From contig NZ_CP030117.1 in the NCBI RefSeq assembly GCF_001039275.2, forward strand, positions 4,496,501 through 4,560,500: 64,000 nucleotides of DNA. Reading direction: 5' to 3'. The position numbers and the translations under genes are program-made. The DNA comes from Brevibacillus brevis. Lineage in GTDB: Bacteria; Bacillota; Bacilli; Brevibacillales; Brevibacillaceae. The notes under the pieces were generated by a model. That model ran no database searches. It was not told the DNA's origin and was given only the letters and a program-made list of their open reading frames with translations. This document shows, piece by piece, positions 11,243 through 62,432 of this stretch. The number at the start of each line of letters is the position of its first letter. Position 1 is the stretch's first letter.

Positions 11243-11267
11243 TCGCCATACCAACTACTGTGGTGGG

Positions 11268-11469
11268 AGGAAACAGGAGAAAACGCTCCAGCTTCTTGGG
11301 TCACCAGCTAGGGGGATTGACTGTACGTCTCCATGGAAAAAGCGAAACCGCGTCCAAAGTAGGGACTCAGGGATGCTTTTCAGAGGTGGACGCTTAAAGG
11401 CGTGTTTCGCTTTTTCCATTGCGCCTCGGTAGGTGCCCCAAAGATCTTCGCTTATTTCTCCTGTTTCCT
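11268..11469 (+). ncRNA. Structured element, copy A (possible novel RNA or hairpin mobile element)
   Basis: Closed by a perfect 15-bp terminal stem (11268-11282 with 11455-11469). Inside are GGGGGATT (11311) and ACTGTACGTCTCCA (11320-11333). A perfect 16-bp hairpin follows (11333-11348 with 11404-11419), extended by a 7-bp stem (11350-11356 with 11387-11393), with CCAAAG (11354) and CTCAGGGA (11366) toward its tip. GGTAGG (11428) comes after the hairpin. The same blocks and stems, with different paired bases, recur at 59794-60006. No credible reading frame. Strand is set by the shared blocks; transcription is not shown. Confidence 0.65.
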
Positions 11470-11731
11470 TACGAGCGAATGGGTTTTCAAGTGGCTTTTA
11501 AAGATTGAAAACAAACAGTCAGTCCTAGCGACTTTCGAAGTCCAACCTAGCTTCGCAGTGATTTGCGGGCAAAAGAAATACAACGTGCTCACCGCTACGT
11601 AGCGGCTACCCCTTTTGCATTTCCCCGCAAATTACTGCGGAGCGGTCAGTCCCCACATCCTAGCAGGACGTAGCCCGGAGCGTAGACTGGAAATATTCTT
11701 CTCTCCACCGCGGCCCCGTTAACAAGAATAA
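11470..11731 (-). other. Gene-free interval with a second long inverted repeat (possible degenerate copy C)
   Basis: No gene is supported. A 16-bp stem (11554-11569 with 11624-11639, one wobble) encloses a 7-bp stem GCAAAAG / CTTTTGC (11569-11575 with 11612-11618) and a 14-bp palindrome (11592-11605). Read minus, the flanks GGGGACTGACCGCTCC and AGGTTGGACTTCGAAAGTC resemble the blocks of copies A and B, so this may be an inverted, diverged copy. GACTTTCGAAGTC at 11530-11542 is a further small palindrome. Confidence 0.4.
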
Positions 11732-11756
11732 CCACCTGCATAACTCTCACAGGTGG
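11732..11756 (-). terminator. Probable terminator after the VOC gene
   Basis: Perfect 7-bp stem CCACCTG / CAGGTGG; read minus it is followed by a moderately T-rich tract (TTATTCTTGTT). It lies 22 bases past the stop at 11779. Confidence 0.55.
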
Positions 11757-11778
11757 CATCATGAGCGATAGAAGAACT

Positions 11779-12192
11779 CTATGCGTTATTCTCTTCATCC
11801 TCAGCGGAAGGCCATCCACCCCATAGGTGGTTCACATGCCCATCTGGATCACGAAATCTAAAGCTGTAACCTCCGCCTCGCTTATACGTCATTTCACTTA
11901 CTTCGATTCCTTTGCTTTTTAACTCCTCATAAACCTCATGGATTTGGTCTACCTGCAAGGAGATGATTGGCTGGGCTTGTCCTGACATATCAGTAAAGTC
12001 CAAACGCGGAACTTCTGGACAACGAATGAGCCCGAGACCTACTCCGCCTACGTTCAACCAAGCCTCATTGTCTCCGGGTGAAAATTCAAAAGTAAACGGA
12101 ATGCCGAGTACATCGCGGTACCACTTTACGGATACCTCCAAGTTTTTGACAGGCAGCTGTACAACCGCAAAATTACGCACATGGATACTCAT
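11779..12192 (-). CDS. VOC (glyoxalase/bleomycin-resistance) superfamily protein
   Basis: 137 residues from the ATG at 12192, which follows AAAGGAG; the longer open frame lacks a ribosome site. Typical VOC features are present: a start FAVVQLPVKNLEVSVKWY, FRDVLGIPF-like strand, and the C-terminal FRFRDPDGHVNHLWGGW. The fold supports metal-dependent lyases, dioxygenases and drug-binding proteins, and the substrate cannot be read from sequence. It follows the ECF sigma gene by 77 bases on the same strand, and that sigma factor ends in a similar motif. Confidence 0.85.
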   Translation of the reverse strand: MSIHVRNFAVVQLPVKNLEVSVKWYRDVLGIPFTFEFSPGDNEAWLNVGGVGLGLIRCPEVPRLDFTDMSGQAQPIISLQVDQIHEVYEELKSKGIEVSEMTYKRGGGYSFRFRDPDGHVNHLWGGWPSAEDEENNA

Positions 12193-12269
12193 TTGTGTTC
12201 GCTCCTTTATTTCAAATATGTACTTTACCCTCATGAACGAAAGAAAAGAACAAAAAGAAACGGGTACCT

Positions 12270-13022
12270 CTACCATTTCTGAAAAAAATGCAGCAAATGT
12301 CCATCCGGGTCACGAACAGCAAAGAAAAGGCGATCGCCTGCTACCGAAACCTTTTCCACGCTCACGCCCTGTTCGGCGAGGCGCAGATACGTTTGACAAA
12401 TCGCATAAGCATCCCCCGCACGAAAGGCAGCCAAAAATTGCTCGAACCCTTCTTTTGATACAAATCCGGACGAATCACGACGTCCAGCTTTGTCGATTTT
12501 CTTTTTGCTGGATGGGCTTTCATCCTGTCTGGATTGCTCAGCCAACACGAGCAAGCGCTGGCGAGCCCTCTTCACCCCTTCTTTCACTGCCCCTACTGTC
12601 GTATGTAGCAATGTGGCTGTTTCCTGCGCCGTAAACGAAAAAATGTCCATCATGAGAATCAGCACCATCTGTCTGGCATTTAGACGATTAGCCAGTTGCT
12701 CGAACATCTCTCTCTGCACAAACGTATCGGATACAGTGGATTGATGCAGATAGTTCGCTTCATCAAACAGGACGGGATGCTCATTCGCCTTTACTTTTCG
12801 GCAATGATCGATCCAAGCATTCGTGGCAATTTGCCTCAAAAATGCCTTGGTTAGTTCTCTGTCTGGAGCCTTCTGTAGGGAACGATACACCTTCGTCAAT
12901 GTTTCTTGCAGGAGATCCTGCGCATCCCAGTCGTTTTTCGTGAGGGACAAGCAATGCTTTTGGATATCCGCAAGAAAAGGTTTTACACGCAAAAAGGAAG
13001 CCTCATCCTCATCCGCCCCCAT
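12270..13022 (-). CDS. ECF-type sigma factor with VOC-like C-terminal tail
   Basis: 250 residues, longer than the usual 160-190 of ECF factors. Region 2 lies at about 25-95 (WDAQDLLQETLTKVYRSL; LRQIATNAWIDHCRK) and region 4 at about 115-165 (LILMMDIFSFTAQETATLLH; VGAVKEGVKRARQRL). A charged linker rich in Ser/Lys follows, then a tail ending LFFAVRDPDGHLLHFFQKW, which matches the C-terminal half of VOC proteins, including the gene next door. GGAGGG precedes the ATG. No anti-sigma gene is adjacent. It could respond to a ligand through the tail, as other ECF factors with C-terminal extensions do; this is inferred. Confidence 0.85.
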   Translation of the reverse strand: MGADEDEASFLRVKPFLADIQKHCLSLTKNDWDAQDLLQETLTKVYRSLQKAPDRELTKAFLRQIATNAWIDHCRKVKANEHPVLFDEANYLHQSTVSDTFVQREMFEQLANRLNARQMVLILMMDIFSFTAQETATLLHTTVGAVKEGVKRARQRLLVLAEQSRQDESPSSKKKIDKAGRRDSSGFVSKEGFEQFLAAFRAGDAYAICQTYLRLAEQGVSVEKVSVAGDRLFFAVRDPDGHLLHFFQKW

Positions 13023-59756: not shown

Positions 59757-59793
59757 ATCTAAAATCCTATTGGTTTGAGTCAACATAGGGGAG

Positions 59794-60006
59794 GAGAAGA
59801 AAAAGCACAGTTCTCTTCGACTCTGACACGCCCGCATGGGGGATTTCACTGTCCGTCTCCACTTCCAAAAGGGGACCGTCGAGCCAAAGCCACCCTACGG
59901 GCGGAAGTTTCTCAGGGAAGAAGTGTTCGACAAGCGTGGTCCCCTTTTGGAAGTTCCGACTGGGTAGGCGTTGTCAAGGTCTGCGAGCCCTGCGCTTTTT
60001 CTTCTC
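59794..60006 (+). ncRNA. Structured element, copy B (possible novel RNA or hairpin mobile element)
   Basis: Closed by a perfect 13-bp terminal stem (59794-59806 with 59994-60006), continued by three more pairs after one mismatch. Shared blocks in order: GGGGGATT (59838), ACTGTCCGTCTCCA (59848-59861), CCAAAG (59884), CTCAGGGA (59911), GGTAGG (59963). A perfect 16-bp hairpin (59862-59877 with 59938-59953) is extended by GTCGA / TCGAC (59878-59882 with 59927-59931). Stem sequences differ from copy A but pair equally well. It lies 38 bases after the trmB stop and before a terminator, with no credible reading frame. Confidence 0.65.
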
Positions 60007-60069
60007 GCTAGCTTTGTTGGTTCATCGGAACTTTCTAAATACTTGTCAAAAATCATAAGTACAAAAAAG

Positions 60070-60121
60070 ACCCTCCACGCACTCAAGTAAGCTTTGGAAC
60101 TTACTTGATGACGTGGAGGGT
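60070..60121. terminator. Strong bidirectional terminator
   Basis: Outer stem ACCCTCCACG / CGTGGAGGGT (10 bp) and inner stem CAAGTAAG / CTTACTTG, with T runs on both strands. It ends the citrate-type regulator gene and probably the trmB/copy B transcript. Confidence 0.88.
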
Positions 60122-60124
60122 TTT

Positions 60125-60823
60125 TTATTCTTTTTGCCGCCCGACGCTCTTGTATACGCGCTCTGGACGTCCGACGACACCGTATGAAAGGTCTGCGATG
60201 GCGTCTCCTTTGGCTACCAGATATTCTAGGTATCGCCTTGCTGTTGAACGGCTAATGCCTGTTTCTTTGCTGACCAAATCGGTCGTGGCCTCCTGTGTCT
60301 GCATGAGAAAGCCTGAAATCTTGTCCAGAGTAATTTGGTCGATCCCTTTAATTGCCCTTGTCTCGGTAGTCTTCTTTTGGCCAGTCCGGGCAATGAGCTC
60401 ATCGATTTGGGCTTGACTGATCTGATCGGTGTCTTTTTTCCAATCGCTTACCTTTTGCCTGAACTCCTGATAATTCCGTAACGTTTGTTGCAGACGCGCA
60501 AAGATAAGTGGCTTGGTAATAAAATCGAATACGCCATAGCGGATCGCCTCTACAACCGCATCCACTTCTTTGGCAGCAGTGAGCATGATGACATCTGTTG
60601 TAGGGAACTGCTCCTTTATGATCGATAAAAAATCGAGGCCGTCCATATCCGGAAAATAAATGTCGAGCAACACAAGATCAGGCTGCAAAATTTCCATTTG
60701 GTCCTTGGCTTCTTGCCCATTCGTAGCAATGCCAATCACCTCGTAACCCTCTACTTTTTCCACGAAGCGTCGGTTTACTTCTGCAATTCTCAGGTCGTCT
60801 TCAATAATGAGTACCCGTATCAC
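60125..60823 (-). CDS. Response regulator of citrate/dicarboxylate two-component system (CitT/DcuR family)
   Basis: 232 residues from a GTG at 60823, nine bases after GGAGG. Receiver: acidic pair in LIIEDDLRIAE, phospho-Asp54 in LVLLDIYFPDMDG, Lys in FDFITKP. The C-terminal helix-turn-helix (ATTDLVSKETGISRSTARRYLEYL) is the CitT/DcuR type. It overlaps the kinase gene by 23 bases. It should activate the citrate transporter gene just upstream, perhaps through the repeats at 63871-63919. Confidence 0.93.
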   Translation of the reverse strand: MIRVLIIEDDLRIAEVNRRFVEKVEGYEVIGIATNGQEAKDQMEILQPDLVLLDIYFPDMDGLDFLSIIKEQFPTTDVIMLTAAKEVDAVVEAIRYGVFDFITKPLIFARLQQTLRNYQEFRQKVSDWKKDTDQISQAQIDELIARTGQKKTTETRAIKGIDQITLDKISGFLMQTQEATTDLVSKETGISRSTARRYLEYLVAKGDAIADLSYGVVGRPERVYKSVGRQKE

Positions 60824-62432
60824 CTCTAACGGCCTCCTTCCGTTCTGCCGTACGTGCATCCTTTGGTATCGTCACAGTAAAAATCGTTCCGCCTACCGGA
60901 TTTCCCGTATGCGAAATACTGCCGTGTACATGTAAAACAGCATGTTTGACTAAGTGCAGTCCGTAGCCATGATTCTGCTGTTGTTTGGTAGAGAAGCCCA
61001 GTTCAAAGATTCGTTCAGCATTTTCTTCGGAGATGCCTGGTCCTCGGTCCTCTACCTCTATGAGCAAGACCTCTTCCATATTGAGCAAAAAGATCGTGAT
61101 TTCTGGTGCAAAAGCGCCTGGTGCTTTTACAGCATCCATCGCATTATCTATCAAATTGCCAAGAATGACAATCAGTTGCGAGCGATCAATCGAGGCAGGA
61201 ATGTCACGGAAGTTACTTTCCGGATCAATTTTCAATTCCACTTTGCGTTCGTTGGCTTGATTCAGCTTCCCGAGCAACAAGCCACCTATCAGCGGGTCAG
61301 GGACTTCTTGCATAATAAACGTCGTATTGTGGACATGCACATTTAGCTCAGCAGAGATCGTTTCAATGGCTTCCTGGTACGATTCAAGCTGGATGAGGCC
61401 TGATATGAGATGCAGTTTGTTGGAATACTCATGCGTCTGGGAACGAAGGACTTCCGCATACTCCTTCACTCGTGACAGCTCCTGTGTGACCTCGAACAGC
61501 TCCGACCGATTGCGAAAGCTCGCTACTGCACCCATAACATGGCGCTCCTTATCCATAATCGGGACCCGGTTCACGACTAATACATGCCCGTCCACATTTG
61601 TTTCGCGGTCAAATTCGGCTTTCCCTGTCTCAATCACCTCATGAAGGCCCAGCGAACGAACCAGCTCGTCCTGTTTGTCCATGATACTGTCTTTATCCTT
61701 CGCTTTCCCCAGCATATGGAGCGCGGTCTGATTTGCGAGCGTGATCGCTCCTTCCTTATTGACTGCCACAATGCCTTCGCGAATCGATTCCAGTACAGCT
61801 TGATTTTCCTGATACAATCGCCCGATTTGTTCAGGCTCCAAACCAAATATCGCTTTCTTTACATTTTGTGAAAGAACGAGCGTAGCCACCACACCCAAGA
61901 GCAAGGTGACGATGCCGATGACGAAGATTCGATTGCGATACGATTCGATCGTTTCATTTATATCCTCAAACAAAAATCCGACAGAAACGACCCCCATCAC
62001 CTTTCCTTCCTCATCATAGATTGGAGTCTTTCCTCTGAGTCCGGGGCCAAGCGAACCGACGGTCTCCGAGATGATGGATTGCCCCTCAAATACTGCTTCG
62101 TTGTCGCCTCCCACCATCTTTTTGCCAATCTGCTCTGGATCAGGATGTGAATAGCGGATGCTTTGCAAATTTCCTACGGTGATAAATGCCGCATTCGTGT
62201 CCACACGTATTTTTTCCACGATTGGATTGATAATCTTGGCAGGATCTTCTGCGTCAAACGCCTGTTTGATCTCGGACATCTGCGCGACGGTCTTGGCGGT
62301 ATGCAGTGCGCGCGTCCCGATCTCATGCTCCAATACGCCTGCCAGCATCTGTTCAAACATCGTACCGAGTATAACAATCACGCCAAAAAGGAGCGAGCAA
62401 ATAATCAACATCAGCTTGCTGTGAAAACGCAC
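60801..62432 (-). CDS. Sensor histidine kinase of citrate/dicarboxylate family (CitS/DcuS-like)
   Basis: 543 residues from a GTG at 62432 after GAGGAGGG. Membrane helices at about 8-28 and 170-190 flank an outside PAS-like/Cache sensor (IRYSHPDPEQIGKKMVGGD). A cytosolic PAS domain follows, then the phosphoacceptor His in RSQTHEYSNKLHLISGL and the ATPase boxes (GNLIDNAMDAV, DRGPGISEENAERIFELGFS, HGYGLHLVKHAV). The ligand is probably citrate or a related acid, judged from family and from the transporter gene next to it. Confidence 0.94.
   Translation of the reverse strand: MRFHSKLMLIICSLLFGVIVILGTMFEQMLAGVLEHEIGTRALHTAKTVAQMSEIKQAFDAEDPAKIINPIVEKIRVDTNAAFITVGNLQSIRYSHPDPEQIGKKMVGGDNEAVFEGQSIISETVGSLGPGLRGKTPIYDEEGKVMGVVSVGFLFEDINETIESYRNRIFVIGIVTLLLGVVATLVLSQNVKKAIFGLEPEQIGRLYQENQAVLESIREGIVAVNKEGAITLANQTALHMLGKAKDKDSIMDKQDELVRSLGLHEVIETGKAEFDRETNVDGHVLVVNRVPIMDKERHVMGAVASFRNRSELFEVTQELSRVKEYAEVLRSQTHEYSNKLHLISGLIQLESYQEAIETISAELNVHVHNTTFIMQEVPDPLIGGLLLGKLNQANERKVELKIDPESNFRDIPASIDRSQLIVILGNLIDNAMDAVKAPGAFAPEITIFLLNMEEVLLIEVEDRGPGISEENAERIFELGFSTKQQQNHGYGLHLVKHAVLHVHGSISHTGNPVGGTIFTVTIPKDARTAERKEAVRGDTGTHY

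Follow-up and report, generated by a model that had tools for sequence, protein, structure and literature searches.

Dispersed folded DNA repeats of fixed replication polarity lie beside intrinsic terminators in Brevibacillus brevis

Results

Two structured elements and the genes beside them

The window analyzed here is a stretch of 64,000 nucleotides from the chromosome of Brevibacillus brevis (NZ_CP030117.1; genome G000 below). It contains two copies, A and B, of a structured element that a first-pass annotation had placed at 11268-11469 and 59794-60006. Both were recovered there with five shared blocks in the same order, and the elements reach past these coordinates on closer delimitation (Table 1). 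The 14-base block ACTGTnCGTCTCCA stands without mismatch in both copies (11320-11333 and 59848-59861); its sole further match in the window carries two mismatches and is chance-like. Across the 6.44-Mb genome this block occurs nine times, never when read backwards, and the one occurrence of the nine that falls within coding sequence is attributable to chance. None of 200 dinucleotide shuffles, against which the fold z values in Table 1 were taken, folded as well as the copies.

Beside copy A, and missed in the first-pass annotation, lies a homologous minus-strand module, D, and the two form a convergent A→ ←D unit of ~470 bp. The TTTTAAA...AAAAGATTG tail of the window A module recurs in other A copies. 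Copy B is a solo module with outer ends GTTTGAGTCAACATAG and TTTGTTGGTTCATCG, whose outer sequence is conserved in 7 copies. One copy had been described as upstream of dpaL and the other as behind trmB, but neither relation proved meaningful, as the elements follow the terminator of a co-directional gene on their other side. The terminator next to copy B went uncalled in a simple scan, whose limit on stem-loop length it exceeds.

Table 1. Features at the two element loci of the window
Feature	Position	Strand	Remarks
Module A (copy A)	11254..11475	+	Core 11297-11441; R1 match 120.4 bits, partly by construction, as this copy was among the R1 training sequences (alignment A2); fold z -3.7
Module A parts, in order			Terminal stem, P2, small hairpin with GGGGGATTGACTGTACGTCTCCA, 16-bp main stem, inner stem, GGTAGG
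Spacer and 3′ tails between the convergent modules	11476..11519	.	TTTTCAAGTGGCTTTTAAAGATTG...; read from sequence
Module D, facing A	11520..11717	-	Core 11520-11684; R2 match 118.9 bits, partly by construction, as this copy was among the R2 training sequences; 5′ outer boundary placed by eye near 11717
Intrinsic terminator of VOC-family gene	11731..11757	-	Directly upstream of the D 5′ end; terminator-like site GCCACCTG...CAGGTGGT TATTCTTGTT
VOC-family gene	11779-12276	-	ORF; its terminator adjoins the D module
Module B (copy B), solo	59773..60040	+	Core 59824-59977; R1 match 175.5 bits; fold z -4.8
Terminator hairpin of response-regulator gene	60069..60122	-	T-run 60060-60068 (- strand); read from sequence; conserved in 7 relatives
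Response-regulator gene	60125-60859	-	Reverse-complement B begins directly downstream of its terminator

Family size, subfamilies, and spread

A covariance model (R1) built from 10 copies found 45 strong copies in G000. Its weak matches exposed a subfamily of homologues that lie on the opposite strand, and a second model (R2), built from 11 of these, found 47 additional strong copies. Such a search, which the first-pass annotation had proposed, gave ~95 modules of ~200 nt in G000 and tens in most relatives. Four subfamilies were distinguished in G000, namely B (19), A (29, truncated ones included), C1 (24), and D (23). D modules nearly always face A at a fixed spacing in A→ ←D units of ~470 bp, and B modules are solo. 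The outer ends of A-D units are alike and inverted (GCTGYRGTGG), and solo B and C1 modules have no simple TIR. A GT[AG]G-like tetranucleotide at the 5′ foot of the hairpin was, by eye, frequent in C1, D, and A and absent in B.

Two further observations concern the surroundings of these copies. A divergent B-like copy (L093, G000:875990, 103.9 bits) lies at 865-890 kb, where five element sites are clustered. Several C1 modules are followed in the same direction by an extra repeated hairpin of ~85 nt, GAAGCACTGTCACATGTTT...AAACATGTGGCAGGGCTTC with GGAAGGAGACCGCCCG inside (L147:1735-1815 and L136:1314-1392; also L132, L144, L145, and L152). This hairpin has no Rfam match, and at one locus its sequence shows high conservation between species.

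Within the genus, 24 of 26 genomes carry elements; at the level of the order, carriers number 32 of 39 genomes and belong to 5 of 7 genera. The count of R1 matches in a genome reaches 78, in G006. Some congeners have zero to two copies, and G003 and G025 have none. A combined model (R3) gave no match in 397 other Bacillota genomes, in each of which 7 candidates were scored, a design that distant relatives could escape. A pattern search of genome contigs matched only Brevibacillus fortis, formosus, and porteri; searches of viral contigs with three patterns and of phage and plasmid collections by distant blastn gave no family match. The first-pass annotation had matched the element to no Rfam family, and this held for all 4227 families at gathering score in the window. 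At permissive cutoffs, copies A and B (E ≤ 10) and the C1 and A-D loci (E ≤ 1, no group II intron among the matches) gave only chance-level matches, of eukaryotic lncRNA/miRNA type and to sRNAs. Among open-access papers, to which the literature search was confined, no description of such elements in Brevibacillus was found.

Covariation and the nature of the pairing

The compensating stem changes first claimed from two copies were borne out on 92 distinct A/B sequences, in which 90.6% of cells were paired and 33 of 36 pairs showed double changes, and on 52 distinct C/D sequences with double changes in 32 of 39 pairs; since the sequences were aligned by fitting to the models, the exact values lean towards structure. 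Neither any of 500 shuffles nor slid structures reached this covariation, and slid structures paired merely 44 to 51% of cells on the A/B alignment. An RNA helix tolerates G·U pairs, and an excess of them is expected where pairing is selected in RNA. In the main stems, however, G·T was no commoner than A·C (24 versus 35 of ~2,550 cells). This suggests that main-stem pairing matters at the DNA level, on both strands, or that the arms are corrected by template switching. In the P2 region of C/D, G·T was favored over A·C (131 versus 28), and one-strand or RNA-like folding is possible there.

These data bear on the proposal that the elements are a host-beneficial structured RNA, derived for example from 3′ UTRs by read-through behind terminators and kept in multiple copies. 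The very strong covariation, the conserved unpaired blocks, and the G·T preference in P2 of C/D all speak for it, as does a conservation of orthologs that resembles that of coding sequence (see below). However, the A/B and C/D homologues are oppositely oriented within the same units, so that a single transcript cannot show both in the same fold, and the main stems lack a G·T preference. No promoter beyond chance was found at window copies A and B, and the near-absence of copies from some congeners and the core deletions at some orthologous sites likewise argue against this proposal, which we consider unlikely.

Orientation relative to replication

In G000, A and B modules are almost uniformly head-on to replication (B, 19/19; A, 28/29; together 47/48), and C1 and D modules are co-directional with it (D, 23/23; C1, 22/24; together 45/47). 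These assignments take dnaA at position 148 as the origin side and the terminus as half-way round the chromosome, since no match to a dif pattern was found in G000. Among the best-scoring matches listed for five other complete genomes, B was head-on in 88 of 88, many of these copies being orthologous and hence not independent. One of the other genomes, G002, fits the head-on rule for B even though its assembly is opened at another point and given in the opposite direction. The only modules of G000 that break the polarity rule are C1:6402638 (-), 4937728 (+), and 1658627 (-), one of which lies 41 kb from dnaA.

On the uninvolved side, only ~60% of the neighboring genes are on the leading strand, a figure from gene-orientation calls that are partly noisy (at the window A-D unit a spurious plus-strand ORF was picked over the VOC gene). 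Gene orientation or terminator placement alone therefore would not yield near-perfect polarity, and fork direction must matter.

The units of G000 are also clustered toward the origin (KS p = 9e-6, 68 units), and the interval from 2.72 to 4.07 Mb has none, though in one relative a copy lies near the terminus. All C1 modules of G000 lie in the origin-proximal half, the farthest at 0.51 of the way to the terminus. Near-perfect polarity and an origin-proximal bias speak for an account in which selection keeps the orientation of sites that serve replication or chromosomal polarity, for example segregation signals or primosome sites of the lagging strand. Yet homologous modules have opposite polarity, the congeners G003 and G025 live without elements, none surrounds the terminus, where segregation signals would be needed, and adjacency to terminators would be left unexplained. 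We regard this account as very unlikely.

Position behind terminators and behavior at orthologous sites

We examined the flanks with C1 read forward, D read forward and followed by A reversed, and B reversed. In this reading direction the element 5′ end lies directly behind an intrinsic terminator in 43 of 62 cases, compared to 8.2% of background windows. In-sense terminator hairpins were found in the 5′ flank at 14/22 C1, 15/21 D, and 14/19 reverse-complement B elements; the 3′ flanks gave 0 to 2 matches per set.

The comparison of orthologous sites took in four and a half of eight sites. B site 5913159 holds an element in 7 species and lacks it in 2, with the gap falling beside the T-run of the same terminator. 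No target-site duplication was visible at this site, and exact element ends are uncertain. The difference probably reflects insertion rather than loss, although the empty site could reflect a deletion. Elements at three orthologous sites were 94 to 95% identical between species, compared to 92 to 95% for the farther, mostly coding flanks and 80 to 92% for the adjacent 60 to 70 bp. As the elements are as conserved as the farther flanks and more so than the adjacent sequence, these values point to selection or gene conversion and not to decay. Copies from different sites within one genome were 92.2% alike, versus 94.6% when one site was compared across genomes, and in G012 two copies from separate sites group with each other. 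This near-equal likeness indicates homogenization, recent spread, or shared constraint.

Long palindromes are expected to be lost during replication, and internal deletions of the hairpin were seen at some occupied orthologous sites in some species. At loci L031, L118, L125, L206, L284, and L286, such a deletion has removed the core hairpin.

Searches for a mobilizing enzyme

No Y1 transposase (PF01797) was found in G000, in a search whose control was found in Escherichia coli, nor was Y1_Tnp found in G011, G023, G015, and G007, all of which carry 30 or more copies. No reverse transcriptase (PF00078, RVT_1) was found in G000 or in the copy-rich G002, G011, G012, G018, G022, and G023. The 20 ORFs tested around two element clusters, including that at 865-890 kb, encode ordinary metabolism and no transposase. 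A resident Y1 transposase or reverse transcriptase was accordingly rejected as the mobilizer in G000, and a reading of the elements as REP or IS200/IS605 remnants moved by a Y1 transposase of this genome is unsupported.

Two rival accounts invoke such enzymes. In the first, the elements would have spread like group IIC introns, as RNA inserted in trans by a group II reverse transcriptase since lost from the lineage. Bacterial class C introns insert directly downstream of rho-independent terminators, with a strong lagging-strand bias (PMC8919778), and the elements share both targeting rules. The missing reverse transcriptase in G000 and its six copy-rich relatives argues against this route, as do the genomes rich in reverse transcriptases, G010 (27), G003 (10), and G021 (13), which have the fewest elements, with the exception of G016, which has 29 reverse transcriptases and 57 elements. 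Copies A and B also lack a group II intron match at E ≤ 10, and we judge the route distinctly improbable. The group II intron-like reverse-transcriptase genes of G010 and G021 themselves switch strand about half-way round the chromosome, as a lagging-strand bias would predict.

In the second, the elements would be giant REP-like elements moved by a RAYT or IS200-type Y1 transposase. They are hairpin DNA with, by eye, a frequent GTAG/GTGG-like 5′ foot in C1, D, and A modules; proteins of the RAYT/IS200 type act on single-stranded DNA, and IS200/IS605 elements target the lagging-strand template (PMC6006769). REPs, however, are far shorter (21 to 65 nt; PMC6006769), B modules have no GTAG foot, and Y1_Tnp was not found in the five copy-bearing genomes named above; we consider this route very unlikely.

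Discussion

Taken together, the data favor, at a probability of about 0.58, non-autonomous foldback mobile DNA elements that are inserted beside terminators on the lagging-strand template by a candidate enzyme other than a resident Y1 transposase or reverse transcriptase. What was observed directly is the number of copies, their structure, their adjacency to terminators, their polarity relative to replication, and one orthologous site that is occupied in some species and empty in others; from polar, terminator-adjacent placement we infer insertion through single-stranded DNA. An element would fold during replication as a single-stranded DNA or RNA intermediate, and the folded element would be joined, directly 3′ of an intrinsic-terminator hairpin, into the exposed template of the lagging strand. 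Joining behind a terminator at the fork would give the same orientation relative to the fork each time and would avoid coding sequence. Mobilization would presumably occur in trans, by an enzyme possibly no longer resident, since neither RVT_1 nor Y1_Tnp was found in G000, G011, and G023.

The failure to find a mobilizing enzyme, the absence of a visible target-site duplication, the non-decaying orthologs, and the G·T-favoring P2 all count against the reading as mobile foldback elements. More tentatively, the repeats could belong to a new foldback element class, inserted behind terminators into the lagging-strand template by machinery that is neither Y1 nor a group II reverse transcriptase, with hairpins selected as DNA. 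The first-pass annotation had left the choice between a functional structured RNA and a hairpin transposed as a single strand. The covariation on which both rested is real, and the replication-fixed orientation, the placement at terminators, the opposite polarity of subfamilies, and the absence of a main-stem G·T excess lean toward the DNA reading.

A strict polarity relative to replication marks elements that move through single-stranded DNA at the fork, and ~95 polar copies in a genome with neither of the enzymes known for such polarity would point to an unrecognized enzyme or to host factors that move hairpin DNA. The elements are ready natural polarity markers for Brevibacillus chromosomes. 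They also warrant annotation, because any covariation screen would take the copies for structured RNA genes; the comparison of G·T with A·C separates RNA-level from DNA-level covariation and could be applied to other candidate noncoding RNA families.

Comparison with known systems

Like HEARO/omega RNA and 6S RNA, the elements are structured and ~200 nt long, but they have no Rfam match (the window at gathering score, copy A at E ≤ 10). With MITEs such as Bcr1 of Bacillus cereus, RUP, and NEMIS they share the character of folding, noncoding intergenic repeats without a transposase of their own, and the A-D units, though not solo B or C1 modules, add similar inverted outer ends; they differ in that no target-site duplication was seen, in that each end is a complex covarying structure, and in their replication polarity. 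The resemblance to REP/BIME sequences with RAYT (TnpA_REP) extends to hairpin DNA dispersed between genes, a division into several subfamilies, pairs in inverted arrangement, a GT[AG]G-like foot (by eye, and absent in B), and a proposed processing of single-stranded DNA, yet the elements measure 200 to 470 bp, occur in a genome without Y1, and show a strict, measured replication polarity. Class C introns are matched in terminator-adjacent insertion and strong lagging-strand bias, unlike which the elements come with no reverse transcriptase, no detected group II RNA domains, modules of only ~200 nt, and main-stem pairing that looks like DNA. In their placement the elements resemble both group IIC introns and REP sequences, yet they fail defining features of each, and we file them, as an undescribed family of folded DNA repeats, as a variant of the dispersed structured repeats of bacteria.
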